Under the pieces are notes generated by a model. It worked only from the letters and a program-made list of their open reading frames with translations, had not been told where the DNA came from and did no database searches. This document shows positions 2,887-41,140 of a DNA stretch of 64,000 nucleotides, in pieces (within the stretch, counting starts at the first letter, position 1; each line of letters opens with the position of its first letter). This stretch comes from an uncultured Pelagibacteraceae bacterium (GTDB lineage: Bacteria > Pseudomonadota > Alphaproteobacteria > Pelagibacterales > Pelagibacteraceae). A program made the translations under genes and the position numbers. Location of the stretch: contig CACGUZ010000001.1 of assembly GCA_902576375.1 (NCBI GenBank), positions 310,001 to 374,000 on the forward strand. The letters are read 5' to 3'.

Positions 2887-5800
2887 AAAATTAAATATTA
2901 AAGATATTTTTTATTTTATAAAAATAAATATTTTTATTTTCTTAGCTATCTTAATTACATTTCCTCAAAGTTATTCAAAACCTATTCCACCAGGATCTGG
3001 TGAGGGGGATGTTCCAGCTAACATATTATTCTTATTAGATAGTTCATTAAGTATGAAAAATCCAGTAACAGGTGGAACATATTTAGGACTTTCGGGTGTA
3101 GATTGGGCAGTCGAATTATCTGATGGAAACTTAATTGTTGGTGAGAAAGGAGATGGTGCTGTCAAAATTTTAACTGCTGAAAGTAAAAAAGATACCTCAT
3201 TTGCCAATGGTAACATTAATTTTAATGGCAAACGAAAAGACAATACTTGCGATAATTTCCCTCATAGTGGAAATAATAATCAAAAAAAAAAAATAAATTC
3301 AGAGTCAAACAATACTGCTTCGGGGGCTGTTTCCTCGGCTGATATAGTTTGGTTTGGATCACAAGCTACAGGACATATAGTTGGCATCAATAGTGATGGA
3401 ACATGTAAGGCTGTGCTTCAAACAGATATTGATATGTTTAAAACACTAGAGATTAGAAGGATTGGAGATGAGGATATATTGTTTGCATTTGGAAGAGCTT
3501 ATAAGAATAGACCTGCATCAAAAAAACAACAACTCGGTTATATGTTGGTAAAAAATTTAGGTGCTAATGGTTCAGACTATAATGGAGCACAAATTCATTG
3601 TGATCTTCATAGGGGCTTTGGAGAACCACGAAATAATGAAGATGGTCCAGATAATTCAGGAAACCTTTTTAACACAACAAAAAAAGATATGTCACTGGAC
3701 ATGACTGTCAGCAAAAATGGAGATTACTTTCATTTTTCAAGAAAAGGTAATTTATGGACTTTTAAGGGTGAAAATCAGGGCAATAACTTATGGTGCCCAG
3801 TGCCTATTGCACAGGGGGGAGGAGAACTTGCCACAATAAGTCCTGAAAACGAAGTTATGAGAAATAAAGAAAATAATAAAACTACAACTGAAGACAGGGG
3901 GTTAAACACTATATATTCGATAAGAGCTTCCTCTGATGATAACGATATAATTTATATAACTGATAAATTTACTCATACCTTGCAAAAAGTAAGACTAGAT
4001 ATTCCAAATGCTGAATATGAAGTTTTAGTGACAGCTGGTAAAAAGGGAATTAAAACTGAGGGTACAGCTGGCACTGTCGCCGCTAGCGATGTAAGCTTTG
4101 ATGAACCAGGAAGAACAAGTAGTAGCAAAATCGCTGCAAATTTATGGGTAAGTTCGTCCACCATACTAGTTGGAAATAGAAATGGAACTATTCAATTATT
4201 TGATGAAGATAAATTCACTGCTGAAAATAAAGATACAAGTTGGCAAGCGCAATATGGTGGAGGCAAAACAACACGATTTCAAGGAGCTAAAGAAGCAATT
4301 CTCGAAATTATTTCTGATAGTTCACTTCAGGCAGGTGCAAATTTTGGTTTTGGACATTGGAACGGTGGAGAAGGTGATATGTCCGGGAATGATAGACCTT
4401 CTCAAAGATATTGCCACAAAAATCAACATCCAGTTACCAAAATAAAATCGGGGAGTTGTTATTACTACAGAGAAGACACTGGACCAACTGCTGGTCCACA
4501 AGAGACCGGCGTTCCCTGGAAAGGTGAGCATCCTGAGGGAACATCAGGTATGTGCACTAAACACTCCTGTCTTAATGTTGCAGTACATAAGAATGGATAT
4601 AGAGAAATACCAGAAGTCCTTGCTGATTTAGAAATGGCTTATGCCACAGACACTGATGCTTTTGCAGATCTTGCTTATGGTTACTATACAAATTTAGATG
4701 GAAAAACCCCAGTAATTAATGATCGGCGACCGTGTCAGCAACATTATGTAATAGTTATAAGTGATGGACATATGTTCAACGAGGATCGTTCAATACCAAA
4801 CATTAAAGAGTTAAGAACTGAACATTCTGTGAGAACATTGTTTGTGGCGTATGGCGGAGCGTACGACAACGTTAAAGCAAAACCAGTATTTGATAGATTT
4901 GCAAAAGCTGGCTCGTGCGATGTTGATGGATCAGCAGAGTGCGTACCAACAATAAAAGCAAACGACCCAGCTGAATTAAAAGCAGAACTTGACACAAGAA
5001 TTAGACAAATAATAGCAGATAGGCTTTCATTCTCAGCACCATCAATTACTGCTTCAATCCAGGAGGGAGGAGCAATTTACCAAGCGCAATTCAATTATGA
5101 ACCGAATGGGGAATGGCGAGGTAACCTTATTAGAAAAGCAATAAGACCAGCTGATGACCCAGATGATCCAGGGGGCGTTGCGGATAGTCCTACTTATTCT
5201 GACAGAAATGGAAAAAATTGGAATGCGGGAGATGAATTAGTTAATCTTGGATCAAATTCGAGAAACATTTGGACAGCTTTAGATGTAGATCAGTCGCCTG
5301 AGGCAAATTATGTTTCAAATTGGAACAATTGGAATGAAACATTGTATCAAGAAATCAATTCATTATTTGAGGAAACAGGTAACATAGTTTTAGATTACCA
5401 TAATACATCATCTACATGTAAAAATGAAAGTGGGGTGCAGGATGGCACTATCGATGATCAAAAAGGTATCATTAATTTTTTAAGAGGAAAAGATTATTTT
5501 GATTACAATGGTGGTTGTAATATTACTGAAGACAGAGGCTCTATACTTGCAGATATCTACCATTCACAACTAGTAGAAGTTGGACCTCCAGGAGCAAACA
5601 CTTTATTTACGTCTAATAATCAAGAAGCATACTGGAGATCTAGTAAAGGGTATGCGCAATTTAAAAGAGATAAAAATAATAGACCAAGATTAATTTATGC
5701 TGGATCTAATGGAGGTATGCTTCATGCATTCAGAGCTTCTAATGGTAGAGAGGAGTGGGCATTTGTTCCTCCTATGGTAGTTCCTCATCTACCTTTATTG

Positions 5801-7963
5801 GTAAATACAAGTATGGATGGAGCATTTAAAAAAACAATTAAAGCTGGTGGGTCTAATGCAATATTTGGTGTTGATGGTTCGCCGGTTGTTCATGACGTAT
5901 TTATAAAAGGATTAAATGAAACGGGAACAGCATATGAAACCACTAAGTCATGGAGAACGTTATTAATGATTCCTTTTGGAAGAGGTGGACCTGGCTTTTC
6001 AGTTCTTGATGTAACTAATCCAACTATTGTTAAAGGAGAAACTAACGCTGATGGTTCGATTAAAATTGATGAAAGTACTGGAAATGTCACTGGAGGAGGC
6101 TCTGGTCCTTTACATATGTTCACAATTTATAATGATACTTATAATAATCGAGTGATAAGAGTAGATCACAATGGTGTATTAAATAGATTTGAATATCAAG
6201 ATGGAGCATTTAGTTTACAGGACTCCTTAGAAGCAGAACAGGCAATTAATAACCACAGTAAAGCTACAGCAGATGATAATGATAGTGATACAGATTTTAC
6301 GAACAGAGATAATATTAATGCATGTGAGTCGGACGATGATTTTGATCCAAATTTCAGAACAGCTGGAGATAAATCATGTTATAAAGGAAAAACATTTACA
6401 TTCTCTAATGTAACTCTACCCGCAGGTTCTTATGATGCAACAACTGGTGTTCTTAAAGATGGAGCTTTAGTTGTTTCAGAAAATTCATCTGGTGATTATA
6501 GTACTCTACAATTTGGACCGACTGGAGTTGTTACTGGGAAGTTTAATATGGATTCTGGTAATCCAAGATTAACAATTACATTTAGTTCAGATAAAATTCT
6601 TAATGCAGGTACAGGGCCTGAATTATCAAGTAAGATAAGATTTGCGTCTTCTTGCGAAGGTTCAGGTGTCTCAGAAGCAAAATTTGACTATAGCCAACTT
6701 GGAGAGACCTGGTCTACACCAAGAATACTAAGAGTGCCGAAATTTGATCCTTCAACAGGTAAATCGACAGGAACCCTCGATAATGATAGATATGTAGCTG
6801 TTATGGGGGCTGGATATCCAAGCTCGTCAAAATGTTCTGGATCAGCTATGTTTTTTGTAGATCTTGAGGGTGGTGCAGACGTATCTGCTGAATCTGATGA
6901 CATTGGAACAGCATTAGAGCACGAGGCTGGTAAATTATATGGAACTGAAATTTTAGGTGGTCCATTAAAAATTGTAGATAGTGATCCAGATGGAAAGAAG
7001 CTAGGTCTCTCGGGTACTTATCCTACAAATGCAAGCCCAGTTAAAAACGCAATAACTGCTGCGCCTGTTGTAATAACTGCTGATGCAGTTGGAAATGCAC
7101 CATGGAGAGGTGGTTTGGTCTACATCAATGATATGGAAGGCAAAATTACTAAAATAAACTTAACATCAGACAAAAAATTATTTGACCAACAAGTTATTAT
7201 GAATTTAAAAGCAAATGATACAAATAAAAGATTAAGCTTCTTTGAAATGGATGGAGCAATAGGATCTAGCACCGGAAACTTTTGGTTATTTGGTGGTACT
7301 GGTGATTTCAATAGGATTTCAGAAATTGATGATGGAATGAGTTTGATGGATAATATAGTTTATGGTATTCGTGACTTTGATTTTCCATATTTTGTACCTC
7401 ACCCAACTTACCCTTTACCAATAAGTGGAGAAGCAGATTTTGTAAGTAAATCAATGGAAGCATTGGAAGCAGAGGCAGGCGTACCAACTATTGAGGACAT
7501 GGATTTATGTATTGATACAACTGGTACAAATGCTCCTACATGCAGTCTTACTTCTTCAAAAATTGGATGGCGATATCACTTAGGTAACGCTGACGGATTA
7601 CCTACTGGTGAAACTGAAAATTTATTTAGAAAAGCTTCAGCAGCGCCTACAGTTTATCGTGGAAAAGTTTATTATCCAATTTATGAACCTGATAAATTTA
7701 ATAATTGTAGTTTAGGAACGGCTTATGTTTGTGCTTATGATGATGAATGTGGTTATTTAGATTCATTACATATAGATAGTTCAGTTCAAGCAGGAAATTG
7801 TTATGAAGTGGGCGCGGGTATTTTATCTAAACTAGTAGTATTTGGATCTAGATTATTTGCTAACCTTGCTGGACCTTCTGAACAAAGTGAGACACTAGTT
7901 GAAATATTAGCTAGTGATAAACAATTTAGATCTTATAGAAAATCTTGGAGAGAAAATTTTTAG
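2876..7963 (+). CDS. pilY1: PilY1-like pilus-tip adhesin with VWA domain
   Basis: About 1,695 residues from ATG 2876. That start is preferred over an upstream in-frame ATG at 2840, because it gives a compact basic leader and hydrophobic signal (IFIFLAILITFPQSYS). Around residues 48-60 is a VWA metal-site motif (ILFLLDSSLSM, DxSxS form). The expected next VWA helix (RFQGAKEAILEII) appears only near residue 465, with the VWA strand VIVISDGH near 625. The roughly 390 residues between contain propeller-like strands (DWAVELSDGNLIVGEKGDGA). From about residue 935 onward is the PilY1 C-terminal propeller (RPRLIYAGSNGGMLHAF, WAFVPP). An Asp-rich loop near residue 1135 could bind calcium. PilY1 proteins sit at the pilus tip in adhesion and surface sensing. 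It overlaps the upstream gene by 11 bases and ends in a terminator. Confidence 0.93.
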   Translation: MKIKKLNIKDIFYFIKINIFIFLAILITFPQSYSKPIPPGSGEGDVPANILFLLDSSLSMKNPVTGGTYLGLSGVDWAVELSDGNLIVGEKGDGAVKILTAESKKDTSFANGNINFNGKRKDNTCDNFPHSGNNNQKKKINSESNNTASGAVSSADIVWFGSQATGHIVGINSDGTCKAVLQTDIDMFKTLEIRRIGDEDILFAFGRAYKNRPASKKQQLGYMLVKNLGANGSDYNGAQIHCDLHRGFGEPRNNEDGPDNSGNLFNTTKKDMSLDMTVSKNGDYFHFSRKGNLWTFKGENQGNNLWCPVPIAQGGGELATISPENEVMRNKENNKTTTEDRGLNTIYSIRASSDDNDIIYITDKFTHTLQKVRLDIPNAEYEVLVTAGKKGIKTEGTAGTVAASDVSFDEPGRTSSSKIAANLWVSSSTILVGNRNGTIQLFDEDKFTAENKDTSWQAQYGGGKTTRFQGAKEAILEIISDSSLQAGANFGFGHWNGGEGDMSGNDRPSQRYCHKNQHPVTKIKSGSCYYYREDTGPTAGPQETGVPWKGEHPEGTSGMCTKHSCLNVAVHKNGYREIPEVLADLEMAYATDTDAFADLAYGYYTNLDGKTPVINDRRPCQQHYVIVISDGHMFNEDRSIPNIKELRTEHSVRTLFVAYGGAYDNVKAKPVFDRFAKAGSCDVDGSAECVPTIKANDPAELKAELDTRIRQIIADRLSFSAPSITASIQEGGAIYQAQFNYEPNGEWRGNLIRKAIRPADDPDDPGGVADSPTYSDRNGKNWNAGDELVNLGSNSRNIWTALDVDQSPEANYVSNWNNWNETLYQEINSLFEETGNIVLDYHNTSSTCKNESGVQDGTIDDQKGIINFLRGKDYFDYNGGCNITEDRGSILADIYHSQLVEVGPPGANTLFTSNNQEAYWRSSKGYAQFKRDKNNRPRLIYAGSNGGMLHAFRASNGREEWAFVPPMVVPHLPLLVNTSMDGAFKKTIKAGGSNAIFGVDGSPVVHDVFIKGLNETGTAYETTKSWRTLLMIPFGRGGPGFSVLDVTNPTIVKGETNADGSIKIDESTGNVTGGGSGPLHMFTIYNDTYNNRVIRVDHNGVLNRFEYQDGAFSLQDSLEAEQAINNHSKATADDNDSDTDFTNRDNINACESDDDFDPNFRTAGDKSCYKGKTFTFSNVTLPAGSYDATTGVLKDGALVVSENSSGDYSTLQFGPTGVVTGKFNMDSGNPRLTITFSSDKILNAGTGPELSSKIRFASSCEGSGVSEAKFDYSQLGETWSTPRILRVPKFDPSTGKSTGTLDNDRYVAVMGAGYPSSSKCSGSAMFFVDLEGGADVSAESDDIGTALEHEAGKLYGTEILGGPLKIVDSDPDGKKLGLSGTYPTNASPVKNAITAAPVVITADAVGNAPWRGGLVYINDMEGKITKINLTSDKKLFDQQVIMNLKANDTNKRLSFFEMDGAIGSSTGNFWLFGGTGDFNRISEIDDGMSLMDNIVYGIRDFDFPYFVPHPTYPLPISGEADFVSKSMEALEAEAGVPTIEDMDLCIDTTGTNAPTCSLTSSKIGWRYHLGNADGLPTGETENLFRKASAAPTVYRGKVYYPIYEPDKFNNCSLGTAYVCAYDDECGYLDSLHIDSSVQAGNCYEVGAGILSKLVVFGSRLFANLAGPSEQSETLVEILASDKQFRSYRKSWRENF

Positions 7964-7995
7964 TTGGAACAATATTTGAAATCCAACTCTTTTTA
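7962..7995 (+). terminator. Rho-independent terminator after pilY1
   Basis: A 7-bp perfect stem (AGTTGGA at 7962-7968 and TCCAACT at 7982-7988) with a 13-base loop is followed by CTTTTTAT. It begins at the pilY1 stop codon and separates this operon from the convergent prepilin peptidase gene. Confidence 0.75.
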
Positions 7996-8000
7996 TCAAC

Positions 8001-8750
8001 TTAAATCAGATATCGTGTGATTATATACATGATTACACCGAGGACAATAAATGGACCAAAAGGAATTTGAGAAGATAAATTTTTTCTTTTTTTTATTAAT
8101 GAAGGTAAAGTTGCCATTAAAGCAATAAAGGATGAAAAAAATAAAATAAATGGTAACGAAATCCATCCAAACCAAAAACCAATCGCTGCTAATAATTTAG
8201 CATCACCTAGTCCCATTCCTTCTTTATTTCTTATTTTCTTATATAAAAAAATAATTAACCAGATGATAAAATATCCAGAAATTCCACCAATCAAAGAGTT
8301 AATGTAATTAGGAAATAAAAAAAAATTATCGATTTGATAAAAAGATTTTGCAAAACCAATAACCATGAGAGGGTATGTAAGCTGATTAGGGATAATAAAA
8401 TGATGGAGGTCTATAAAAAATATTATAATGAAAAAAATACTAAGTATTACCAACAATAATGAAGTGATGCTTATCCCATAAAAATAATATATAATTGTAA
8501 ATGAAAGTGCTGAGATTAGTTCCACAATAAAATATTCAAAGCTAATTTTATTGTGACAATTTCTACATTTGGCTTTAAGTATTAAAAAGGAGAATAAAGG
8601 AATATTATCGAACCATTTAATTGTTTTTTTACAATTAGGGCAGAAAGAACGGCTATATATGACACTTTTTTCAATTGGAATACGATGGATACAAACATTT
8701 GAAAAACTACCCCATATACAACCGAGTAAAAAAAAAAGAAAAAAAAACAC
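8001..8750 (-). CDS. pilD: Prepilin peptidase (type IV leader peptidase / N-methyltransferase)
   Basis: This 249-residue polytopic inner-membrane protein removes the leader of prepilins and usually N-methylates the new N-terminus. The N-terminal A24_N region has GSFSNVCIHRIP and two CxxC pairs (FCPNC and CRNCH), which form the zinc-binding loop of this domain. The peptidase domain has its two aspartates in FFIDLHHFIIPNQLTYP and GMGLGDAKLLAAIGFWFG, the latter being the GxGD signature. About seven or eight hydrophobic helices are visible. Its substrates are likely the pilins at 1-2311 and 19627-20539. It lies opposite to the surrounding pil genes, between the pilY1 terminator and the GAF-phosphatase gene. 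Length and motifs match the family, and the gene looks intact. Confidence 0.93.
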   Translation of the reverse strand: MFFFLFFLLGCIWGSFSNVCIHRIPIEKSVIYSRSFCPNCKKTIKWFDNIPLFSFLILKAKCRNCHNKISFEYFIVELISALSFTIIYYFYGISITSLLLVILSIFFIIIFFIDLHHFIIPNQLTYPLMVIGFAKSFYQIDNFFLFPNYINSLIGGISGYFIIWLIIFLYKKIRNKEGMGLGDAKLLAAIGFWFGWISLPFILFFSSFIALMATLPSLIKKRKNLSSQIPFGPFIVLGVIMYIITRYLI

Positions 8751-8828
8751 TAATTAAATTTTAAATTGGGAGGCAATATTAATAATACCGTTAATACAAT
8801 ATTGAATAAAAATAACAGCATCCTGAAC

Positions 8829-10196
8829 ATGAATATAAAGTCCGGGAGAATTAATTATGATTTCCATGACAATTTAAATTACCAAAAAAAAAGAGGAATT
8901 CCAAATACAAAAATGTTTTTTAAACCCAAAAAAATTGAGCCCAATAAAGAAAATCTTTCACTCAATGAAGATCTAGCAATTATTACTAAAATGAATCAAG
9001 AGTTCGCAAGATCACTTGATTTAAAAGAAACATTACAAACAGCTCTAGAACTAATCATAAATAGAATAAAAGCCCAAGCAGCAAATATATTTTTAATAGA
9101 TGATAAAAAACAAGTTTTTCAATGTATTGCATCAAAATATCAATCTTATCTCGATGAATATGAAATACCATTAACACAAGGAGTAATGGGAAAAGCAATA
9201 CTTCAAAAAAAATGTGTAAGAGTGGGAGATGTTAGAAAAGACGTAAGAGAAATTGCAGAATTTTATTTTGATTTGGATAATAAAACTAATTTTACAACTT
9301 ATTCTGTTCTTTGTTCTCCTTTAATAGTTGCTAATGAGTGTATCGGAGTAATTCATTGTTTAAATAAAAAAAGTACAGATAAATTATTTCAGGAAGGAGA
9401 TAGAAAACTTCTTGAAACTTTATCAGGACCAGCAGCTCTAGCAATTAGAAATGCAAAAATGGCAAAAGAATTAATAGATAAGAATAGAATGCAAAAAGAA
9501 ATAGAGATTGTCGGTGAAATTCAAAAAACTTTATTATCACAAAATAAAGATGACAAATTTCCAATCGCAGGTATAAACATTCCTGCTAAAATTGTTTCAG
9601 GAGATTTTTATAATTTTTCTGATTTAGGAAATGGTAAGTACGGTTTTGGTGTAGCTGATGTGTCTGGTAAAGGAATTAAATCTTCTTTGTTGATGTCTAA
9701 GGCTTCAAGTCTTTACAGATGTTTAAGTAAAACTATATTTTCACCAGCAGCGTTATTAGATTTACTTAATAAAGAAATTTGTGAAACAACATCACGAGGA
9801 ATGTTTGTTACAATGTTGATTGGTATATATGATAGTAATAAAAAAGAATTACTTCTATCTAATGCAGGACATGAACCTCCTTTAGTTTTTAAAAAGGATG
9901 GAAATTTTTCAAATTATACAGAAGCAGGTCCGCCTTTAGGCATAATGTCTAAAATTAAATACAAAGAGTCGGCAATAAATTTTTCAGAAAGTTCTATGTA
10001 TGTTTTTACAGACGGAATTACAGAAATAAAAGATCCAAATGGAGAAATGTTAGGTGCTGAAGGTTTTCAAAATTATATAAAAAAGTTTAAGGATGAACCG
10101 AGTAACGATAGATTAAAAAAAATTGTGGAAGATATTGTTAAGTCAGGAAAAATTCAAAAGGACGACCTTACAATTGTGGTTGTGGACGGAAAATAA
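8829..10196 (+). CDS. GAF domain - SpoIIE/PP2C serine phosphatase (RsbU-like)
   Basis: A cytoplasmic protein of about 455 residues. The start is uncertain: ATG 8829 is preferred, while an in-frame TTG at 8766 would add 21 residues. After a basic N-terminus comes a GAF domain (roughly residues 65-210: 'TKMNQEFARSLDLKETLQTALELI', later 'CSPLIVANECIGVIHCLNK'). A short coiled linker (KNRMQKEIEIVGEIQKTLL) follows, then a PP2C SpoIIE domain. Its metal-binding aspartates are visible in SGDFYNF, ADVSGKGI and VFTDGITE, together with SNAGHEPP. The family dephosphorylates STAS anti-anti-sigma proteins; the RsbV-like gene at 19181-19480 is the obvious candidate substrate. The GAF ligand is unknown. No membrane segment or signal peptide is seen. 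Confidence 0.88.
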   Translation: MNIKSGRINYDFHDNLNYQKKRGIPNTKMFFKPKKIEPNKENLSLNEDLAIITKMNQEFARSLDLKETLQTALELIINRIKAQAANIFLIDDKKQVFQCIASKYQSYLDEYEIPLTQGVMGKAILQKKCVRVGDVRKDVREIAEFYFDLDNKTNFTTYSVLCSPLIVANECIGVIHCLNKKSTDKLFQEGDRKLLETLSGPAALAIRNAKMAKELIDKNRMQKEIEIVGEIQKTLLSQNKDDKFPIAGINIPAKIVSGDFYNFSDLGNGKYGFGVADVSGKGIKSSLLMSKASSLYRCLSKTIFSPAALLDLLNKEICETTSRGMFVTMLIGIYDSNKKELLLSNAGHEPPLVFKKDGNFSNYTEAGPPLGIMSKIKYKESAINFSESSMYVFTDGITEIKDPNGEMLGAEGFQNYIKKFKDEPSNDRLKKIVEDIVKSGKIQKDDLTIVVVDGK

Positions 10197-10699
10197 CTCT
10201 AAATTATTTTTTTTATACAATTAAAATAATAAAAGTTCCCCAAAGAGTTGAAATTTTATAATCTTAATAAAAAAATTTATCTAAAATTCGTGATTGTCGC
10301 ACTTTTGCAACATATTAGGACAAAATTATTTCACAACTTATAATTTATTTTTAAATTTCGTAAAAAAAATACCAAATTTTCAAGACTCTAACACAAAAAT
10401 TAAATTTTTCTTAAAATGTAAATAAGTGTTGATTTTATTGAATATTTTTTTTTCTTAAATTTTGGTCAAACTCTAACACAAAACTACCTTTTTTTCTTGT
10501 GTTAGAGAATGCCAAAAATCTAAAAAAAACTTAAAAGCAGAGCAAAAAATTATTTAGCTAAAAAGTCAATAAAATCAACAATTTTGGTAAATTTCAGAAT
10601 TTATTATTTAAATATTAACAATTTTTGTTTGACATTAATCCCTTTTGTGTTAGAGATTCGTTAAATTGTGTTAGAGTAAAAATTTTTTTATTATGTTTT
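10197..10699. other. 503-bp intergenic region upstream of the pilM operon
   Basis: This AT-rich spacer holds no gene I can support. It contains five copies of an 11-bp motif (separate entry), a 14-bp perfect inverted repeat (GTTGATTTTATTGA at 10428-10441 and its complement at 10566-10579), and a possible -35 box TTGACA at 10629-10634. A frame open from 10625 into the pilM gene could add 25 residues, but those residues (many Cys and hydrophobic) do not resemble the acidic start of the protein. I place the start at ATG 10700. The length is unusual for this compact genome and points to a regulatory role. Confidence 0.6.
10386..10676. repeat. Five copies of an 11-bp motif TTGTGTTAGAG (candidate operator array)
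   Basis: Exact copies of TTGTGTTAGAG lie on the + strand at 10497-10507, 10645-10655 and 10666-10676. The exact reverse complement CTCTAACACAA lies at 10386-10396 and 10471-10481. Copies two and three face each other as an inverted pair with a 15-base gap, and similarity extends outward on both sides (GGTCAAA / TGCC-AAAA). Copies four and five are direct repeats 21 bp apart, about two helical turns. The array ends 24 bp before the pilM start codon. I infer binding sites for a transcription factor; alternatively the TG-T-TAGAG core could be part of promoter -10 elements. Confidence 0.7.
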
Positions 10700-13135
10700 A
10701 TGGACGATAAAGAAAAAGAAAAATTTGGTGTCATTATAGACAAAGATAAACAACCTCAGGATGAACAACCAAAAGTTGAGGAAAGCACTCCTGTAGATGA
10801 AAAAATAGATAACCAAGTCGAAAATAATCAAACTTTAGAACAAAAACAACCTGAAAACGAAAATGTCCTAAAAGAAACTAGTACAGATGATAAAATTTCC
10901 GAAAATATTACAAACGAAACACAAAATAATGAAAATGAGTTAAATCAAGATCAAAATTTTGAGAAAAAATCTGAAAATGAGAATGAGGGCATTACTCTTT
11001 CAGAAAACAATGATGAAAATCAACAAGAAGAAAAAAAAGAGCACCAGGTAATTCATAAAAAAGATGGAAGACTCCACATTTATGTTCGACAAGATAAATA
11101 CAAAGGTGAACTTAAATCAAAAAATTGGGTTGGAAGGCTTTATATAGATGGAAAACAAAAAATATCTTCATCAGGAACACCAAATCTTGATGATGCAATA
11201 CCAATTTTAGAAAAATGGTTTGATGATGTTCACAATCAGAAACAAAAAGAATTAAAAAAACTAGAGGAGGAAGCTTCAAATGAAAAAGAAAAATCTTCTG
11301 AGGATTTAGAACAAGTAAATGTACAAACAAACAAAGAAAACACAATTCAAAACGAACCACAAGTATCTATCAATACCGAAAATTCTAATACAGATAATCA
11401 AGATGAAGCACAGCCAAAAACTTTTTTAGAAAAATTAAAAAATATAAAATTTAAAACTCCATCATTTGGCAAAAAAAGTTCTGGTTCATCAAGTTTCAAA
11501 CCTAACACTGGAAATGTTAAAGAAAAATTTAATAATTTTATTAAGTCTAAACTTGGAAAACAAACAGTACAGGGAGAAGAAATTGTAGGGGTAGAAATTA
11601 CTAATAAAGAAATTAGACTTTCTCAAATTTCATCTAATAAAGGAAACCAATGGGTTCTTGATAGATTTTATGTTCATCCAATTGAATTACCTGATGATGC
11701 AACAATTGTTGATCATGCAACAAAAGTAAGTGAAGAATTAAATACAGCTTTACAAAAATCAAAAATTACAACACCAAATGCAGCTATTGCTATTCCTGTA
11801 ACAAATGCAATCATTCGGGTAGTAACAGCTCCTCTAATGAATGACGAGGAATTAAGAAAAGCAATTGATACAAGTTCTCTTTGGGAAAATCTTGTTCAAC
11901 TTACAGATAATTTAGATGATTATTCTATATTCCATCAAGTTATAAATAGAAGTCCAAAAGAAAATACTATGGATATTTTATTTGTCGCTTCAAAGTTATC
12001 AGACATTAATAATTACACATCAATTATTAAAAATAGTGGATTAAATCCAGTTATCATTGATGTTAAATGTTTTGCTTTAAAATCTGCAGTAGACCAAATT
12101 AATCAAATATCAAATAAAACTGATGACGTTAACTTTACTGCTCTTTTAGAATTTGGTCTCGATGAGAATTATGTAATGATTTTATATAATAATAACCCAA
12201 TAATTACTGACATTTTCTTAAGAGGACAAGATAGGCAGATTTTAAAAGACTCTCAAAACCAAGAGGAAAAAGAAGCACTTGTAAGAAGGTTTATGACTCA
12301 AGTGAAGCAAGCAATACAAGATTTTGAAACAAAATACGAAAAAAGAGTGAGAAATATTAAAGTTGTATCGAATTTAGCAAATGTCGAAGAATATTTAGGA
12401 AACTTTAGAAAAAGTTTAGTAAACACCGGTTTTAACTTGTTCGATCCACTTGATGGCTTAAAAATTCCAAAACAGCTTGAGGATAAAGTGAATTATGAGA
12501 ATAGATCATATTTTTCTGCTGTCGTTGGTCTTGCATTTAGAAAACTTGATGTTTTTGGTTATTATAAATTTGTAACCGCTGTTAAAAATATAAACTTACT
12601 TCCTAACAGGGAAGGAATGATTAAGCAAAAAAAAATGAAAGCATTTTCGAATTTTGCTTATAAAGGATTTGTTGGCGCTGTAGCTGGAATATACTTAATT
12701 TTATTTGGTTTAGCCTTTTGGAATATTTATAGTTATAATAATGAGTTAAAAAATTATAATAACGTTTTATCCCAACACCAAACTGCAGAAAAAAATTTTA
12801 AAACAACTGCTAAAGAGCTATCAAAGATTACTACCACGCTTAAGTTAAGTAGCAGTTTAAAGTCTAATAAAGATTTAAGTTATAGAATTCTTGCACAAAT
12901 TGCTTCAAGCGTGCCTAACAGAATTAAATTTAATCAAGTTGAATATGATGGAGTCAGACAAGTAATAATTACAGGAATAGCCGCAGGTGATAATGATATT
13001 TTACAACTAATTAGAAATTTACAAAAAAAAGATTTAATAAAACAAGCATCATTATCTAAAATGAATCTACCTGCAGCAAAAGCTGGAGGTCAAGCAATGA
13101 AAGGATTTAAAATTTTTGTTAAGATTAAGGGATAG
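10700..13135 (+). CDS. PilM-PilN fusion protein with acidic N-terminal extension
   Basis: 811 residues from ATG 10700 (MDDKEKEKFG). Residues 1-113 are a low-complexity Glu/Asn/Gln/Asp-rich tail. Residues about 114-177 form a small domain (DGRLHIYVRQDKYKGELKS, GRLYIDGKQKISSSGT, then an acidic helix) resembling the arm/AP2-like domains of phage integrases. Residues about 180-290 are another charged linker. Residues about 292-615 look like the actin-fold PilM (EIVGVEITNKEIRLSQIS; AIAIPVTNAIIRV). From about 640 to the end it is PilN-like, with one membrane helix (about 657-675, FVGAVAGIYLILFGLAFW) and a periplasmic coiled segment. PilM and PilN normally form the inner-membrane alignment complex as separate proteins; here one chain joins them. 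pilO follows 2 bases later. Confidence 0.85.
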   Translation: MDDKEKEKFGVIIDKDKQPQDEQPKVEESTPVDEKIDNQVENNQTLEQKQPENENVLKETSTDDKISENITNETQNNENELNQDQNFEKKSENENEGITLSENNDENQQEEKKEHQVIHKKDGRLHIYVRQDKYKGELKSKNWVGRLYIDGKQKISSSGTPNLDDAIPILEKWFDDVHNQKQKELKKLEEEASNEKEKSSEDLEQVNVQTNKENTIQNEPQVSINTENSNTDNQDEAQPKTFLEKLKNIKFKTPSFGKKSSGSSSFKPNTGNVKEKFNNFIKSKLGKQTVQGEEIVGVEITNKEIRLSQISSNKGNQWVLDRFYVHPIELPDDATIVDHATKVSEELNTALQKSKITTPNAAIAIPVTNAIIRVVTAPLMNDEELRKAIDTSSLWENLVQLTDNLDDYSIFHQVINRSPKENTMDILFVASKLSDINNYTSIIKNSGLNPVIIDVKCFALKSAVDQINQISNKTDDVNFTALLEFGLDENYVMILYNNNPIITDIFLRGQDRQILKDSQNQEEKEALVRRFMTQVKQAIQDFETKYEKRVRNIKVVSNLANVEEYLGNFRKSLVNTGFNLFDPLDGLKIPKQLEDKVNYENRSYFSAVVGLAFRKLDVFGYYKFVTAVKNINLLPNREGMIKQKKMKAFSNFAYKGFVGAVAGIYLILFGLAFWNIYSYNNELKNYNNVLSQHQTAEKNFKTTAKELSKITTTLKLSSSLKSNKDLSYRILAQIASSVPNRIKFNQVEYDGVRQVIITGIAAGDNDILQLIRNLQKKDLIKQASLSKMNLPAAKAGGQAMKGFKIFVKIKG

Positions 13136-13137: not shown

Positions 13138-13827
13138 ATGGATTTAAATGAATTAAAAAATTTGAATATGGAAGATTTAAAAGCAAAAGTCCTAGCTTTT
13201 GCAGACAAGAAAACTCTTATTAAGATTGGTATAAGTCTTGGTTCAATAATTGTTTTTTTAATAATTTATTACGCAATATTAAATCCAATCGTAAAAGACA
13301 AAAAAACAAAGATTGATGACATGAAAACTAAACAAGCAGAAATTACTAAATTTAATAACGATATTGCTAATATTAAAAAGAAAATTAAAAAATTAAAACC
13401 TCAATATGACAATTACTCGACATTATTTCATTCTAGAGCTGAAGTAGAGGGCTTATATCAAAATCTTAGTGAATTTGCTGCAATAAATGGTCTTGTAATT
13501 TCAAAAATTGAAAAAGGTAAACCTAAAGTAGTAACAAAGTCAGAAGTATTAAATCCGAAGAAAAAGAAAAAGGCGAGCAAAAAGAAGAAGAAAGCCTCTA
13601 AAAAGGAAGAGATTAAAAAAATTGCTTATTATAAAATACCCGTAAGTTTTGAAATAAGAGGCAATTTTATTGGCTATATTAAGTTTAAACGAGCCCTCTC
13701 TTTATCTAATAAAATGTTAAATTTTGACAAAGAATCAGTAAAAGTGGTAAAAAGTACTGATTCAACTGGAGCGATAAATGTATCTGGGGTATTAACAATA
13801 GTGGGGTTGGCAGATGAGTTTTACTAA
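13138..13827 (+). CDS. pilO: PilO-like inner-membrane alignment subunit
   Basis: 229 residues: a short cytoplasmic N-terminus, one membrane helix (about 28-48, IKIGISLGSIIVFLIIYYAI), a periplasmic coiled coil (KDKKTKIDDMKTKQAEITKFNNDIANIKKKIKKL) and a C-terminal ferredoxin-like region ending in a beta strand. This is the PilO layout, and the order M/N-O-P-Q is canonical. Oddly, residues about 140-160 are a run of lysines (KKKKKASKKKKKASKK), which topology places in the periplasm. PilO pairs with PilN and contacts PilP to align the motor with the secretin. The pilP start overlaps the end by 14 bases. Confidence 0.88.
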   Translation: MDLNELKNLNMEDLKAKVLAFADKKTLIKIGISLGSIIVFLIIYYAILNPIVKDKKTKIDDMKTKQAEITKFNNDIANIKKKIKKLKPQYDNYSTLFHSRAEVEGLYQNLSEFAAINGLVISKIEKGKPKVVTKSEVLNPKKKKKASKKKKKASKKEEIKKIAYYKIPVSFEIRGNFIGYIKFKRALSLSNKMLNFDKESVKVVKSTDSTGAINVSGVLTIVGLADEFY

Positions 13828-14242
13828 AAGTTTATTTAACTGCATAACATTTTTATTAGTTATGTTTTTATGCGTTGAATTAAAAGCAGATGAAAATAAA
13901 AGTAAAGAAGAACCTTTACCGTTAAATGATCCGTTTGTTGGAGACGCCTCTTTAAGTGGTGGCGTCAAAGTATTGTCAGATGGAACAACATCCTCTGAAC
14001 AAAAAAGATTAGATATATTCACTTATAAATTAACTGGACTAGTTCAATCCGATAGCAATAGTTTCATATCATTAATTAATCAAGATGGAGAAAATGTTAC
14101 TGTTGAAATTAATGAAGAAGTAAACGAAGGGGTTAAACTTATAGATATGAACCAAAAAGAAGTTGTTTTTTTGGTAGAGGAAACAGACTCTTATTTAATA
14201 ATGAATTTTAAGAATGAGATAAAGGAGACAAGTGAATACTAA
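13814..14242 (+). CDS. pilP: PilP-like pilus assembly protein
   Basis: 142 residues with an N-terminal signal or anchor (LFNCITFLLVMFLCVELKA), a flexible linker (DPFVGDASLSGG) and a C-terminal beta domain (YKLTGLVQSDSNSFISLINQDGENVTVEI...). The last part resembles the PilP/GspC homology domain that binds PilQ ('L.G.....S.ISL.d..G....l..G'). No lipobox Cys is evident at a normal place, unlike many PilP lipoproteins, so it may instead be anchored by the signal helix. It overlaps pilO by 14 bases and pilQ by 11 bases. The call rests largely on position and size, with moderate domain similarity. Confidence 0.75.
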   Translation: MSFTKSLFNCITFLLVMFLCVELKADENKSKEEPLPLNDPFVGDASLSGGVKVLSDGTTSSEQKRLDIFTYKLTGLVQSDSNSFISLINQDGENVTVEINEEVNEGVKLIDMNQKEVVFLVEETDSYLIMNFKNEIKETSEY

Positions 14243-15773
14243 ATACTTTAGATTTCTTGCTTTATTAATTTTTTCGTTCGTTTTTTTAAACGGTTGTACC
14301 CAAGGTAAATTCTCTAAATCAAAAGATTTTAAACATCCTACCCCTCTAATTAAAGATGATATAAGAAAAAAAGGTAAGGAAGAACTAGACAGAACTGTCG
14401 AAATGGGCCCACAACCTGTTTTGGGTGATACTACTAAATTAAAGAAAAGAAAAAAAATTTCATCTCAAACAAAAAGAAACTATTTACTGATTCCTGAGGA
14501 TTTCAAATCTTTGAAACAGTCGGTCAGTTTTAAATTTAAAAATCTTGATTACAAAGAAGCCATGATGTTGATGGGAAAGATTGGAGAAATAAATATATTA
14601 GTTGGTGATGAAGTTGCTGGATCAATAAGTGCAGAATTAGTTAATGTCCCATGGGATAAAGCATTTAATGCTTTATTGGATATGAAAAATTTTGCAGCTG
14701 ATATTGATGTTGCAAGTAATTTAATAAGAGTTCACTCACCGTCAACATTAACTGCACAAGAAAATTATAAATCTTCAAGAGCAGCTGCTGTTAAGAAAAA
14801 AGTAGAATTAGAGGATTCAGTTGAACCAATCGTTTCAGAAATTTTTAGACTATATTATATTGCACCTGCTCAAGCAAAATCCACAATATTAGAATTGTTT
14901 GCTAATAAGGATGATAATTTTTCAACCATACAAATTACTGAGGAAATAACAACTAGATCAATTATAGTTAGAGGAAAAAGTGAAGATTTAGATGTTGTAG
15001 AAAACATAATTGCTGAAATTGATGTTAGAACTAAACAAGTTTTAATAGAAGCTTTCATCGTTGAAGCTGATTCAGAATTCGAAAAAGCGTTAGGAACAAG
15101 ATTAGGTGCTGCGTATCAAAGACAAGCAGAGTCCATAGGTGGAATAATTGGAGGAACAACAGCAAACAATGCAATAACATCCTCGAGCGCAGCTCTTGGA
15201 GGAGCATCAGACTCGGTTGCTGATTTCACAGCTTCAGCAGCAGGTGCAACAAGTGGGATAGGTATTTTAAAAAGAACAGGTTCAGGAGTATTAAAAGCTG
15301 AGATACAAGCTTTAGAGAAAAGAGGTTTGGGTAAAACTATTTCAAATCCAAAGGTATTTACTTTAGACAACCAAGTAGCAATTATTACTCAAGGTGAAGA
15401 AGTTCAATTCCAAGCTACTGGTTCTGAAGGAGCCAATACGTCTTTTAAACCTGCCGTATTAAAATTAGAGGTAACACCCAGTATTATTGGTGATGGCAAT
15501 GTACTTATGAACGTGAGCGTTAATAATGACTCTGTTAATAGAGCAGTTGCAGGAGAACCAGGGATAAATACAATGACAATCAAAACTAAGCTATTAATTG
15601 CAGACGGAGATATTGTTGTAATTGGTGGAATAAAGAAAAATAGAGTATTTAGTACAAAAGAAAACCTTCCAGGCATAGCAAACGTACCTGTGGTGGGAAA
15701 TTTGTTTAAAGGTCAAACAAAAGGCGATAGTATGGATGAATTATTAATATTTATCGCTCCGAGAGTTTTGTAA
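14232..15773 (+). CDS. pilQ: PilQ-like secretin (outer-membrane pilus channel)
   Basis: 513 residues from a GTG start with a good ribosome site (GGAG 5 bases upstream). The N-terminus is a lipoprotein signal with lipobox LNGC (Cys22). Residues about 95-165 are an STN-like domain (VSFKFKNLDYKEAMMLMGKI, later LIRVHSP), and residues about 195-250 an N-domain (IFRLYYIAPAQAKSTILELF). The secretin core runs to the end, with VLIEAFIVEAD, a Gly/Ala/Ser-rich gate insertion, VTPSIIGDG and the final VPVVGNLFKG...ELLIFIAPRVL. Secretins form the multimeric channel through which the pilus exits. The protein is shorter than gammaproteobacterial PilQ (about 700), lacking AMIN domains, and is closer in size to GspD/PilQ of compact genomes. 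Confidence 0.93.
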   Translation: MNTKYFRFLALLIFSFVFLNGCTQGKFSKSKDFKHPTPLIKDDIRKKGKEELDRTVEMGPQPVLGDTTKLKKRKKISSQTKRNYLLIPEDFKSLKQSVSFKFKNLDYKEAMMLMGKIGEINILVGDEVAGSISAELVNVPWDKAFNALLDMKNFAADIDVASNLIRVHSPSTLTAQENYKSSRAAAVKKKVELEDSVEPIVSEIFRLYYIAPAQAKSTILELFANKDDNFSTIQITEEITTRSIIVRGKSEDLDVVENIIAEIDVRTKQVLIEAFIVEADSEFEKALGTRLGAAYQRQAESIGGIIGGTTANNAITSSSAALGGASDSVADFTASAAGATSGIGILKRTGSGVLKAEIQALEKRGLGKTISNPKVFTLDNQVAIITQGEEVQFQATGSEGANTSFKPAVLKLEVTPSIIGDGNVLMNVSVNNDSVNRAVAGEPGINTMTIKTKLLIADGDIVVIGGIKKNRVFSTKENLPGIANVPVVGNLFKGQTKGDSMDELLIFIAPRVL

Positions 15774-15774
15774 A

Positions 15775-17523
15775 ATGTTAAAGATAAGTAGAGAAAGCGA
15801 AATAAATTTAATCAACGTATTGATTGATAACGACATTATATCTGGAAAAGATCTTCCTAATATAAAAAAAGTAAGTACCGAAAAAAATAAATCACAGATC
15901 GATGCAGTCTTTGAATTAAAACTTACTGATGAAAACAAAATTTTAGATGTATTGGTTAAAGAGCAAAGTCTAGATACTATTGACCTATCAAAAGTTCAAA
16001 TTACTGATGAGATCAAGTCAGTATTACCTTCAAATTATATAAATGTAAATTTTGTTGCACCTTTTAAGGTAGAAGGAAAAGTTTTACATATAGCAATTTC
16101 AGATAGCTCAAAATTAGGGCTAATGAGAAATTTGAAAGCTATTACAAAAAAAGATATTGAACTTCATGGTGCCAAAGTTTCTCAAATTTCAGAATTTATA
16201 CAAAAATTACAAAATGAAAGTGGTGATGTAACTACTGAAACCATTAGAAAAGAAAAAAGAGAAAAAACTAAAACTTTTGACTCGGAATTGGGAGAGGCTG
16301 GAGAAGTTCTAGATAAAAAACCTGAGGAAGATGTTGAGGCAATAGAAAACGAGTCTGAGGTTATTAAATTCAGTACTGCGGTAGTAGCCGATGCTATTAA
16401 GTTGGGAGTAAGTGATATTCATATTGAGCCATACAGATTTTCTTCAAGAGTAAGGTATAGACTTGATGGAATGCTGCAGGAACAAGAGGAATACAAACAA
16501 TTTCTTCATGACAATTACGGAGCAGTAGTAACTCGTTTTAAAATTATGGGAAAATTAGATATTGCTGAAAGAAGGTTACCGCAAGATGGAGCTATCAATT
16601 TTAAAATTGACGGTAAAGTAGTCGATCTTCGATTATCGGTATTACCAACTGCAAATAATGAAAGAATTGTAATGCGTATCTTAAATAAAGATGCAGGAGA
16701 TATTACTCTTGAGCAATTAAATTTTGAGGACGTTGATTTACAAAATTTAAGGAAAGCAATACATAGCACACAAGGTCTTATTTTAGTAACAGGACCAACT
16801 GGTTCGGGAAAATCAACTACTCTATATAGTATTTTAAAAGAAGTGAGCAAACCTCATTTAAATATTTTAACCGCTGAAGATCCAGTAGAATATGAACTTG
16901 ATGGAGTTGGACAAGTTCAAATTAAAGACGATATTGGATTAAGTTTTGCATCTGCCTTAAGATCATTCCTACGTCAAGACCCAGAAATTATTTTAGTTGG
17001 AGAGATGAGGGACAAAGAAACAGTAGACATAGGTTTAAAGGCTGCTTTGACTGGTCACCTCGTATTTAGTACGCTTCACACAAATGATGCTCCTAGTACG
17101 ATTACTAGATTACAAAACATGGGAACGCCTGATTATTTAATCAGTGCTGCAACTCAAATGGTTTTAGCTCAAAGATTAGCAAGACGAAACTGTAAAGATT
17201 GCAGAGTTCCAGATGATGATGTGACACCAAAAGTTTTAACTGATCTAGGATTTTCGCCAGAGCAAGCCTCTCGTGTGAAAGCAATTAAAGGTAAAGGATG
17301 TCCTAAGTGTAAAGACACAGGTTACAAAGGCCGACAAGGGATTTACGAAATTATGGTTATTTCAAAACCAATCAAAGAAGCAATATTAAGACAAGCAACA
17401 ACACCAGAACTAAGAGAGATCGCTGTAAAAGAGGGCTTTCAAACTATGCAAGATATGGGCAGAAGGATGATAGCTAACGGGGATCTTAATTTTAGAGAGT
17501 TTGAAAGAGTTTTATCAAGCTAA
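15775..17523 (+). CDS. pilB: PilB-like type IV pilus extension ATPase
   Basis: 582 residues. The N-terminal T2SSE_N domain (about residues 1-150) is followed by an acidic linker and the ATPase core: Walker A GPTGSGKSTTL near residue 340, Asp box, Walker B IILVGEMRD near 404, His box STLHTND near 430. A zinc-binding four-cysteine loop (CKDC ... CPKC) lies near 470-510, typical of GspE/PilB and absent from PilT. It drives pilin polymerisation at the inner membrane with PilC. No retraction ATPase (PilT) is encoded in the window. It starts 1 base after pilQ's stop, in the same operon. Length matches PilB (about 570). Confidence 0.95.
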   Translation: MLKISRESEINLINVLIDNDIISGKDLPNIKKVSTEKNKSQIDAVFELKLTDENKILDVLVKEQSLDTIDLSKVQITDEIKSVLPSNYINVNFVAPFKVEGKVLHIAISDSSKLGLMRNLKAITKKDIELHGAKVSQISEFIQKLQNESGDVTTETIRKEKREKTKTFDSELGEAGEVLDKKPEEDVEAIENESEVIKFSTAVVADAIKLGVSDIHIEPYRFSSRVRYRLDGMLQEQEEYKQFLHDNYGAVVTRFKIMGKLDIAERRLPQDGAINFKIDGKVVDLRLSVLPTANNERIVMRILNKDAGDITLEQLNFEDVDLQNLRKAIHSTQGLILVTGPTGSGKSTTLYSILKEVSKPHLNILTAEDPVEYELDGVGQVQIKDDIGLSFASALRSFLRQDPEIILVGEMRDKETVDIGLKAALTGHLVFSTLHTNDAPSTITRLQNMGTPDYLISAATQMVLAQRLARRNCKDCRVPDDDVTPKVLTDLGFSPEQASRVKAIKGKGCPKCKDTGYKGRQGIYEIMVISKPIKEAILRQATTPELREIAVKEGFQTMQDMGRRMIANGDLNFREFERVLSS

Positions 17524-17532
17524 AACAAATAA

Positions 17533-18771
17533 ATGGAAGCTTTTACTTACAAAGGAATTTCTGCAGGAAAATATGTTGAGGGAGAAATAGAAGCTCTAAA
17601 TCAGGAAGAAGCGTCTTTTAAACTTAAAGAGCAAAAGGTCATAATCACTAATTTAATAAGATCCTCAAAGAAAAAAACGGCAGATAAAAAAAAATCAAAA
17701 GGCAAAGGACTTTCTCTCTTTGGTAAAAAGAAGGTTAAAGTAGAGGAAATTCTAATTTTTTCCAAACAATTTGCAACCATGGTTAAAGCAGGCCTTCCTA
17801 TTTTAGAGGTGCTTGGCATGTTAAGAGATCAGCTTGAGGGTGAATCTATAAAAGAAATGATTGAAGATATAAGAAAAAGTCTTGAAGGAGGTGTTACTTT
17901 ATCTAAATGCTTTGAAAAATATCCGGAGTATTTTGACAATGTATACTGCAACTTAATTAAAGCAGGAGAAGCTAGTGGTAAGCTTGATGTATTTCTTCTT
18001 AAAATTGTAGACTCATTAGAAAAAAAAGAAAATATAAAGAAAAAAATTAAAAGTGCTTTAATGTACCCAAGTATAATGTTTACTGTTGCAATTACAGTCA
18101 GTGCATTCATGCTTATTAAGGTTGTACCTGTATTTGCGCAAATGTATGATGGAATGGGAATTGCATTACCAAAACCAACAGCAATTATAATGGGAATGAG
18201 TGATTTTTTAAGAGGGACTGGTGGTATGGTATTACTTCTTTCTTTAATCGGTGGCTTTGTTTCATTCAGATACTTAACGACAAAAAATGAAAAAATAAAA
18301 TACATGTGGCATGGAAGAGTTTTAAAGTTGCCAGTTTTTGGGGAATTAATTTTAAAATCATTACTTGCTAGAATTTCTTTAATAATGGGTAATCTTAGTG
18401 CTGCAGGTGTAAACTTATTAGAAAGTTTAGAAATTGCAAAATCTGTTAGTAGCAATGTTGTAGTAACTGAAGCTTTAGAGAATGTGAAAAAAGGTGTTTT
18501 TTCAGGAGACACTCTTACAAAACTTTTTTTAAAAGAACCATTATTTCCTCCAACATTTAGTCAACTTATTTCAGTCGGTGAGCAAACTGGACAATTGGAT
18601 GAAATGTTTAACTCAGTTGCAAGCTATTATGAAGCTGAGTTTGATACTGCTGTTGATAATATGTCTAGTTTAATAGAGCCGATAATGATTGTTTTTATGG
18701 GACTAATGATTGGTGGACTGATGATAGCGATGTACTCACCAATATTCAATGTTGGTGCCTTAATCGGCTAA
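17533..18771 (+). CDS. pilC: PilC-like inner-membrane pilus platform protein
   Basis: 412 residues with two copies of the T2SSF domain, each helical bundles with GxxL..L motifs (KQFATMVKAGLPILEVL near residues 78-94 and ARISLIMGNLSAAGVNLLESL near 280-300). Membrane helices lie near 180-200, 230-245 and 380-400. A FxxKEPLFPPTFSQLISVGEQTG...LDEMF segment corresponds to the family's conserved F..MigvGEetG. The N-terminal 60 residues (MEAFTYKGISAGKYVEGEIEA) are the usual leading beta domain. It is the polytopic platform that couples PilB to pilin insertion. Its stop overlaps by 4 bases the convergent RsbW-like gene, ending the pilMNOPQBC operon. Confidence 0.95.
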   Translation: MEAFTYKGISAGKYVEGEIEALNQEEASFKLKEQKVIITNLIRSSKKKTADKKKSKGKGLSLFGKKKVKVEEILIFSKQFATMVKAGLPILEVLGMLRDQLEGESIKEMIEDIRKSLEGGVTLSKCFEKYPEYFDNVYCNLIKAGEASGKLDVFLLKIVDSLEKKENIKKKIKSALMYPSIMFTVAITVSAFMLIKVVPVFAQMYDGMGIALPKPTAIIMGMSDFLRGTGGMVLLLSLIGGFVSFRYLTTKNEKIKYMWHGRVLKLPVFGELILKSLLARISLIMGNLSAAGVNLLESLEIAKSVSSNVVVTEALENVKKGVFSGDTLTKLFLKEPLFPPTFSQLISVGEQTGQLDEMFNSVASYYEAEFDTAVDNMSSLIEPIMIVFMGLMIGGLMIAMYSPIFNVGALIG

Positions 18772-19181
18772 ATTTTTTTGGTAAGAACTAAGTGGTTAAC
18801 CCATTTTTGTTGGTCCTTTTTAAAAACAGCATCATCCATAATCTGTTTAATAAAAAAAGTTCCAAGTCCACCTGGTTTTATATCGTCAAGTTTTCTATGT
18901 TGAATATTTTCTGGTATAACTGGTTTACCTTTATCAAAAAAACCTATTTCAAGATCCCCATCCTTTAAAGAAATCTTAATTTCCATTCTATCATTAGTGT
19001 TTTCAACATCTTTATAGCCGTGTTTAACAATGTTTTGTGCTGCTTCAGCAATAGCTAAAACTAATTCGTCTTTTAAATCTTGTTCCAGTTTCAATTTTTC
19101 AAATACTTCTCTAGAAAAGACTCTCACTTCTTTTAAACTTGCTGTGCTGACTAAAAAATCTTTAGACTCTTCTATATTCAT
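18768..19181 (-). CDS. RsbW/SpoIIAB-like anti-sigma factor serine kinase
   Basis: 137 residues forming a single HATPase_c fold of the anti-sigma kinase subfamily. The N-box (ELVLAIAEAAQNIVKHGY), G1 box (LEIGFFDKGKP) and G2 box (PGGLGTFFIKQIMDD) are all visible. Such proteins bind a sigma factor or another partner and phosphorylate the STAS antagonist. The start overlaps the stop of the RsbV-like gene upstream by 1 base, so the two are cotranscribed and probably made in similar amounts. The target is not encoded in the window. The module lies between the pilC and pilin genes and on the opposite strand, implying its own promoter near 19481-19626. Confidence 0.9.
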   Translation of the reverse strand: MNIEESKDFLVSTASLKEVRVFSREVFEKLKLEQDLKDELVLAIAEAAQNIVKHGYKDVENTNDRMEIKISLKDGDLEIGFFDKGKPVIPENIQHRKLDDIKPGGLGTFFIKQIMDDAVFKKDQQKWVNHLVLTKKI

Positions 19182-19480
19182 TATTCAAGGTTAAGAATCT
19201 GCTCAAGTTTCGCCATCATAATAACTTTTAAAACAGATTTGCTTACTTCTTTAACTACAACTTTAGTGTTATTCTCTAGAGCCTTTTGATGACTTTCAAT
19301 TAAAACAGAAATACCTGAAGAGTCCATGTATGATACATCTTTTAAGTTTAGGTGAACTTCTTTCCCTGTCTCAACTATAGGCAATATAACTTCTTTTGCC
19401 TTTTCGGTAACATCCATATCTATTTCACCATTTAAATACACAGTTGAAATATTGCCTTCTTCAGTAACTTTGTAGCTCAT
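19181..19480 (-). CDS. RsbV/SpoIIAA-like STAS anti-sigma factor antagonist
   Basis: 99 residues, a lone STAS domain. The phosphorylation site lies in VSYMDSSGISVLIES (Ser54/Ser55), the canonical position for RsbW-type kinases. 'GEIDMDVTEKAKEVILP' matches the beta-alpha start of the fold. When dephosphorylated it would sequester the kinase at 18768-19181. The two SpoIIE-type phosphatases in this window (8829-10196 and 23530-25581) are likely its activators. The gene is divergent from the pilin gene at 19627, with a 146-bp shared upstream region. The fold and motif are clear; the output of the switch is not. Confidence 0.92.
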   Translation of the reverse strand: MSYKVTEEGNISTVYLNGEIDMDVTEKAKEVILPIVETGKEVHLNLKDVSYMDSSGISVLIESHQKALENNTKVVVKEVSKSVLKVIMMAKLEQILNLE

Positions 19481-19626
19481 AAGTGTTAATTGATAGCATT
19501 ATTTATAAATTAGTAAAATCCTAATATTAACTTTTGTTGATTTTTCTCTATTTTTTGACCAAAGTTCATACTTTAATAAACTAAAAATTTGTAATATGAA
19601 TCTATTATAAATTTATTTGGAGGCTT

Positions 19627-20082
19627 ATGAAAAAAAGAGAAAAAGGCTTTACGCTAATTGAATTATTAGTTGTGGTGGCAATTATTGGAGCACTAGCTGC
19701 AGTTGGTGTCGTTGCATATAATGGTTACACAGCTGCTGCAAAAAAGAATGCAGCAAAATCTATACACGCAGGTGCAGTTAAATTTGTTGCTGCAGAATTG
19801 GCAAAATGCGTTGTAGACGATACTGATACTGTTTTAGGAACTGTAGCTTGTGGTGATACGATGACTGGAGCACTTGTACAAAGTGCTTTTGTAGGTATAT
19901 CTGAAGATAGAAATCCTTGGGGTGGAGCAAAAGCAGCTACATCAGCAACAACAGTACCTACAGGTGACAGTTTATCAAAAGGATTATTATATGTAGTTGT
20001 TACTACGGCCGCGCCTGATGATGTTACACTTGTTATGAATGACGGAGAAAATACATACAATCAGACATTAACTATCGAGTAA
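19627..20082 (+). CDS. pilA: Major type IV pilin (PilA-like)
   Basis: 151 residues with a six-to-seven residue basic leader (MKKREKG), cleavage before Phe8, Glu12 at mature +5 and the classic helix FTLIELLVVVAIIGALAAVG. The globular part is Ala/Thr/Val-rich, with two cysteines (KCVVDDTDT...ACGD) that probably form a disulfide. A strong ribosome site (GGAGG at 19619-19623) sits just before the ATG, stronger than at neighbouring genes, as expected for an abundant subunit. The prepilin peptidase is at 8001-8750. The second pilin follows 19 bases later. Major pilin is the most likely role, inferred from position, length and ribosome site. Confidence 0.92.
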   Translation: MKKREKGFTLIELLVVVAIIGALAAVGVVAYNGYTAAAKKNAAKSIHAGAVKFVAAELAKCVVDDTDTVLGTVACGDTMTGALVQSAFVGISEDRNPWGGAKAATSATTVPTGDSLSKGLLYVVVTTAAPDDVTLVMNDGENTYNQTLTIE

Positions 20083-41109: not shown

Positions 41110-41140
41110 CATTTTATGTCACTTATAGGACTATTGTTCC

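Follow-up and report, generated by a model that had tools for sequence, protein, structure and literature searches.

An 11-bp motif array upstream of pilM in Pelagibacteraceae is a putative operator for a PilM-PilN fusion protein with an integrase-type arm-binding domain

SAR11 bacteria are very abundant and possess few regulators, and a pil operon preceded by several identical copies of a short motif raises the question of which protein reads them. We analyzed a 64-kb stretch of a Pelagibacteraceae (SAR11) genome (hereafter the window), in which the exact sequence TTGTGTTAGAG occurs five times at 10386-10676, while Markov models predict only 0.03-0.04 exact copies in 64 kb. An earlier note on this DNA had described five exact copies within less than 300 bp, two on the minus strand and then three on the plus strand, with copies 2 and 3 facing each other and copies 4 and 5 lying 21 bp apart; the coordinates and strands agree with this description in every respect, the 21 bp being the distance between the starts of copies 4 and 5 (Table 1). 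It had also noticed no additional copy in the window; our scan of the 64 kb likewise returned no one-mismatch copy outside the array, and for exact copies the statement can be extended to the whole 1.17-Mb genome. The perfect 14-bp inverted repeat that it had placed around the centre of the array is real as well, and constitutes a separate conserved element. The first gene after the array encodes PilM and PilN as a single fused protein, and is followed by pilO, a small gene, and the genes for a secretin, PilB and PilC.

Table 1. Motif copies, accompanying elements and genes at the pilM locus (positions in the 64-kb window).
Feature	Position	Strand	Remarks
Motif copy 1 (TTGTGTTAGAG)	10386-10396	-	Distal; exact match
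Second element (GTTGATTTTATTGA)	10428-10441	+	Distinct from the motif; kept in most relatives, in either orientation
Motif copy 2 (TTGTGTTAGAG)	10471-10481	-	Central; exact match; faces copy 3
Motif copy 3 (TTGTGTTAGAG)	10497-10507	+	Central; exact match
Second element, inverted copy (TCAATAAAATCAAC on the plus strand)	10566-10579	-	Perfect 14-bp match
Candidate -35 hexamer TTGACA	10629-10634	+	Directly 5' of copies 4 and 5; consensus only
Motif copy 4 (TTGTGTTAGAG)	10645-10655	+	Promoter-proximal pair; exact match
Motif copy 5 (TTGTGTTAGAG)	10666-10676	+	Promoter-proximal pair; ends 23 bp 5' of the pilM ATG
PilM-PilN fusion gene	10700-13135	+	811 aa
Arm-binding-type domain codons	11036-11248	+	PilM residues 113-183
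Remainder of the presumed pil operon	13138-18771	+	Downstream of pilM-pilN
pilO	13138-13827	+	Presumed pil operon
Small gene	13814-14242	+	Presumed pil operon
Secretin gene	14232-15773	+	Presumed pil operon
pilB	15775-17523	+	Presumed pil operon
pilC	17533-18771	+	Presumed pil operon

A PilM match was found in 40 of the 101 genomes of the genus, and these proteins come in two forms, a long one (~750-840 aa) that is extended at the N-terminus and a short one (~570-600 aa) lacking the extension. Motif arrays are present upstream of the long-form genes, while no motif was found within 500 bp upstream of the short-form genes of the same genus. We then collected 91 non-redundant upstream sequences of genes encoding the extra N-terminal domain of PilM (~65 residues), comprising 88 pilM genes and three integrase genes. 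An array of 3-11 copies, most commonly 7 or 8, precedes 87 of the 88 domain-bearing pilM genes, which answers the earlier note's call to look for the motif at orthologous pilM genes. The only exception is L209, whose contig fuses the PilM N-terminus to a SpoIIE gene in antisense orientation and is likely to be an amplification chimera (or an inversion). The consensus of all the copies is TTGTGTTAGAG with A/T flanks, and their usual layout is ---+++++, i.e., a minus-strand group, a facing central pair, and a plus-strand group closest to pilM; the five copies in the window are a reduced version of this arrangement. The spacing of the central facing pair is kept at 25-26 bp (or 35-36), that of the promoter-proximal same-strand pair at 21-22 bp, and the same-strand spacings in general are 21-22, 86, 128 and ~150 bp. 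The spacings repeat with a periodicity of 10.66 bp (vector strength 0.84, n=438), so that the sites share the same helical face.

The association also holds in a draw of 247 genomes from the family, where closely spaced same-strand motif pairs adjoin the domain-bearing pilM in 29 of the 29 genomes that carry one, compared with one isolated match among the 218 genomes without such a gene; a reversed-pattern control matched in 1 of the 247 genomes. None of the arrays is more than about 1 kb away from the domain codons (Fisher p 6e-37, with kinship not corrected for), and as the array and the domain adjoin and are inherited as one block, this association amounts to few independent events. Rather than being scattered randomly over the genome, the pattern that the earlier note had named as adverse to its proposal, the motif occupies a single locus per genome, always at pilM, and it is retained across genera though the surrounding DNA diverges. 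In more distant relatives of the order, a search for the exact motif returned single scattered matches only. In the PilM tree, the short-PilM clade is nested within the long forms and has two long rows inside it; however, two of the "short" labels, L173 and L191, seem to stand for long genes cut short or broken by a frameshift and not for genuine losses, and we did not rely on the count from this tree. At 23 of the 78 domain-pilM loci the contig runs out no further than 900 bp upstream of the domain, compared with 2 loci where it does so on the downstream side, so that assembly or amplification seems to fail in the array region.

The fusion protein in the window consists of an acidic linker, a DNA-binding-type domain, another linker, PilM_2 (residues 297-501), a transmembrane segment (residues ~656-674) and PilN (residues 730-808). 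The matches to PilM_2 (4.5e-20) and PilN (1.7e-7), with PilO, the secretin, PilB and PilC encoded downstream, identify it as a type IVa PilM; taken as a whole it is no tyrosine recombinase, as PilM_2 and PilN stand in place of the core-binding and catalytic domains. Through the fusion to PilN, with its membrane span, the protein is membrane-anchored and the domain faces the cytoplasm. Between species, the domain is 94.7% identical, compared with 78% for the PilM core and 28-30% for the flanking linkers, and since third codon positions differ synonymously at 38% of the identical domain residues, it is the protein sequence of the domain that is held, not recent identity. In other genera of the family, PilM starts straight with the domain, which is 58-74% identical to that in the window, and arrays are found upstream there too. 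An AlphaFold model of the domain built on a diverse alignment predicts a three-stranded sheet followed by a C-terminal helix (pLDDT 83), the usual layout of arm-binding domains. However, Foldseek comparison of two models with known structures returned nothing significant, so the assignment to the arm-binding class rests on homology to an integrase, described below, and not on the fold. The domain likewise had no significant sequence match among solved structures, no match or model in Pfam, two weak unnamed families in PHROGs (E about 0.01), nothing convincing beyond its own genome in a search of 385 genomes of the class, and no confirmed occurrence in viral contigs.

The three integrase genes mentioned above, in L131, L132 and L249, each encode a 418-aa tyrosine recombinase with the PilM-type domain at its N-terminus, 51-57% identical to that of PilM. 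Phage_integrase (PF00589) was found in the C-terminal half of the two recombinases scanned, above the cut-off in one and just below it in the other, and the integrase had no match among phage records. Mobile-element tyrosine recombinases recognize arm sites next to their att core through an N-terminal arm-binding domain (PMC8138268), and the homology of PilM residues 113-183 to the N-terminus of a bona fide recombinase would place them in the arm-binding class. Each integrase gene lies inside an element that interrupts a tRNA-Leu gene at the anticodon-loop sequence ACTCAAAAT, and tandem GTGTAAGAG-type sites are located ~55-75 bp inside both att cores of the three elements, placed like integrase arm sites; TTTGTGTAAGAGTAGTGTAAGAGT, for instance, is the same at both ends of L132, and one site in L131 reads ATGTTAGAG. 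Exact TTGTGTTAGAG is absent near the integrase genes, and it was this search that led to the paired TTGTGTAAGAG sites, which are a single base away from the pilM motif. When every one-base variant of this motif was counted in L131 and L132, only TTGTGTAAGAG proved enriched, with 5 copies against 1 for the next best. Since both proteins that share the domain adjoin arrays of a nearly identical 11-mer, we infer that the PilM domain reads TTGTGTTAGAG; this is our strongest argument, and it makes a strong case for the pairing of the domain with the site. The elements themselves are small (L132 ~3379-8550, L131 ~3670-8800, L249 ~5230-10400); those of L131 and L132 contain, beside the integrase gene, an intact tRNA-Leu that would compensate for the broken one.

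The position of the sites suggests what such binding might do. In most relatives a TTGACC-N18-TATAAT-like promoter (by consensus only) directly precedes the proximal motifs, in another genus the motif occupies the 17-bp spacer of TTGACA/TATTAT, and the best sigma-70-like consensus promoter is overlapped by the motif in 61 of 87 upstream sequences, a raw count without a shuffled control; in many relatives the proximal copies are probably within the 5' leader. Taking these data together, we consider it probable that the array is an operator array for PilM-PilN, with an arm-binding domain captured from an integrase, and that it serves most likely in self-repression. The point missing from the earlier note is thus that the protein binding the array is probably PilM itself. 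In its proposal of a dedicated regulator, or of looping sites, controlling the pil operon, the dedication of the array to pilM is borne out by its conservation there, while the sites may serve in looping and transcriptional control. Specifically, PilM, fused to PilN and thereby anchored in the inner membrane, would have gained at its cytoplasmic N-terminus an arm-binding domain of a tyrosine recombinase that recognizes TTGTGTWAGAG, in the form of TTGTGTAAGAG at the att arms of the integrase and of TTGTGTTAGAG upstream of pilM. Several PilM subunits, their domains on flexible linkers, could bind sites on the same helix face, and by linking the distal group to the proximal one would make the DNA between them loop out. 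As the proximal sites overlap the likely promoter and the 5' leader, negative autoregulation of the pil operon would be the most likely outcome, with repression by occupancy as the simplest reading, and it may plausibly be sensitive to the engagement of PilM in the pilus complex. Activation or tethering of the locus would give an identical sequence pattern. Integrases can repress their own genes from att sites overlapping the promoter (PMC2951348), and a repressor with a recombinase fold exists in MrpR (PMC10516654). A bolder version, which we regard as doubtful, is that assembled PilM-PilN rings gather the array and tie the operon to the membrane pilus machine, so that the state of assembly would set both transcription and gene position, the integrase-type domain and its site array having been domesticated together.

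Among the alternatives, PilM may bind the array mainly as a tether, with the membrane PilM-PilN ring holding the pil locus or chromosome region at the pilus machine, e.g., for assembly coupled to transcription or translation, and with repression being secondary. Such a role would suit the membrane anchor of the protein, the long acidic linkers that carry its DNA-binding-type domain, the presence of numerous sites on the same helical face at only one genomic locus, and the inversion of the distal group relative to the proximal one; however, a tether need not sit on the likely promoter, and the overlap of the sites with it fits direct control better, so we deem tethering unlikely. Somewhat less likely still is a separate trans-acting regulator unlinked to PilM, the domain having another role and being merely co-inherited. 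Operators are usually bound by separate regulators, and adjacency of array and domain alone would yield their association, but this explanation leaves unaccounted for the near-identical att-arm sites of the integrase that shares the domain, and no arrays occur apart from the domain, neither among the 218 genomes nor upstream of short PilM. An RNA element, with the inverted copies pairing into a long hairpin of the transcript or its leader, is very improbable: the region does fold better as RNA than its shuffles (z -5.1) and the 5' leader of many relatives probably includes the proximal copies, but such folding is expected from inverted repeats anyway, identical copies stand on both strands in helical phase with same-strand pairs included, they match the DNA arm sites of the integrase, and an Rfam scan of the window gave no match at the array. 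Equally improbable is a remnant of an integrase that no longer has a function, either an att site in decay or a miniature mobile element, since the match to the integrase arm sites and the paired, inverted arrangement resembling att arms are outweighed by a motif kept across genera while the flanking DNA diverges, at a single locus per genome, and no target duplication was noticed in passing. We rejected the remnant reading because an att site has a crossover core beside its arm sites, usually at a tRNA, and neither the att core ATTTTGAGT near the array nor a tRNA in the window was found; nor does the array occur in multiple copies as a mobile element or MITE would.

To our knowledge, no described type IV pilus protein has its own DNA-binding domain, and none was found in the papers that we searched. 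If operator binding by PilM-PilN is true, a membrane machine would feed back directly on its own operon through the integrase domain of a mobile element and a matching site array. ToxR and CadC are membrane-anchored one-component regulators with a cytoplasmic DNA-binding domain on a single-span protein; PilM-PilN resembles them in combining such a domain with a membrane span, but theirs is a winged-helix domain, while here an integrase-type domain is carried by a structural pilus component. Compared with the arm-binding domains of the lambda Int and Tn916 Int class (PMC8138268), the PilM domain has a homologue 51-57% identical at the N-terminus of a recombinase in the same bacterial family, a predicted sheet of three strands plus a helix, and an integrase relative with paired ~11-bp sites near its att cores; in contrast, its partner in the fusion is a pilus assembly protein without a catalytic or core-binding domain, and its sites are located at a promoter instead of a crossover site. 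The autoregulated IntS of prophage KplE1 (PMC2951348) is likewise an integrase-type DNA-binding protein encoded beside its own arm-type sites overlapping the promoter, but in that case the integrase acts as its own regulator at attL, whereas here the protein is PilM-PilN and an att core is absent. MrpR, the SP-beta master repressor (PMC10516654), offers a parallel in that recombinase-derived binding is reused for repression at a repeated element; however, it keeps the overall recombinase fold, whereas PilM would use an arm-binding domain alone, on a membrane pilus protein and at one target locus. With PilM/PilN of the type IVa alignment complex and GspL of type II secretion (PMC3724824), the protein shares the PilM_2 and PilN domains, operon order and membrane anchoring, but PilM and PilN are fused here, as in GspL, and an extra DNA-binding-type domain is added on disordered linkers. 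PilM and the integrase would also offer two naturally diverged versions of the domain along with the two diverged sites, TTGTGTTAGAG and TTGTGTAAGAG, so that the recognition rule of the domain could be tested with a small soluble protein.

The 14-bp repeat GTTGATTTTATTGAC recurs, in either orientation, in most of the domain-pilM upstream sequences. Because the pilin gene at 19627 is likewise preceded by similar sequence with a TTGACC-like box behind it, this second element probably serves a more general pil factor. Sequence resembling the pilM promoter (GTTGATTTTT...TTGACCAAAGTTCATAC; AACCCATTTTGAATA) is found at 19481-19627, before the pilin gene, and at 22230-22290, before the gene at 22258. 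The latter (22258-23472) encodes a protein whose long tail is rich in lysine, with KKK repeats, beside a gene for a CHASE2-like SpoIIE phosphatase (23530-25581), the domain names being judged by eye. The pil operon is flanked on both sides by parts of a partner-switching system, namely, a GAF-SpoIIE phosphatase (8766-10196, plus strand), an HATPase (18768-19181, minus strand) and a STAS protein (19181-19480, minus strand). Elsewhere in the window, the Rfam scan identified an rhtB RNA at 28414-28496 and a glycine riboswitch at 41132-41222.
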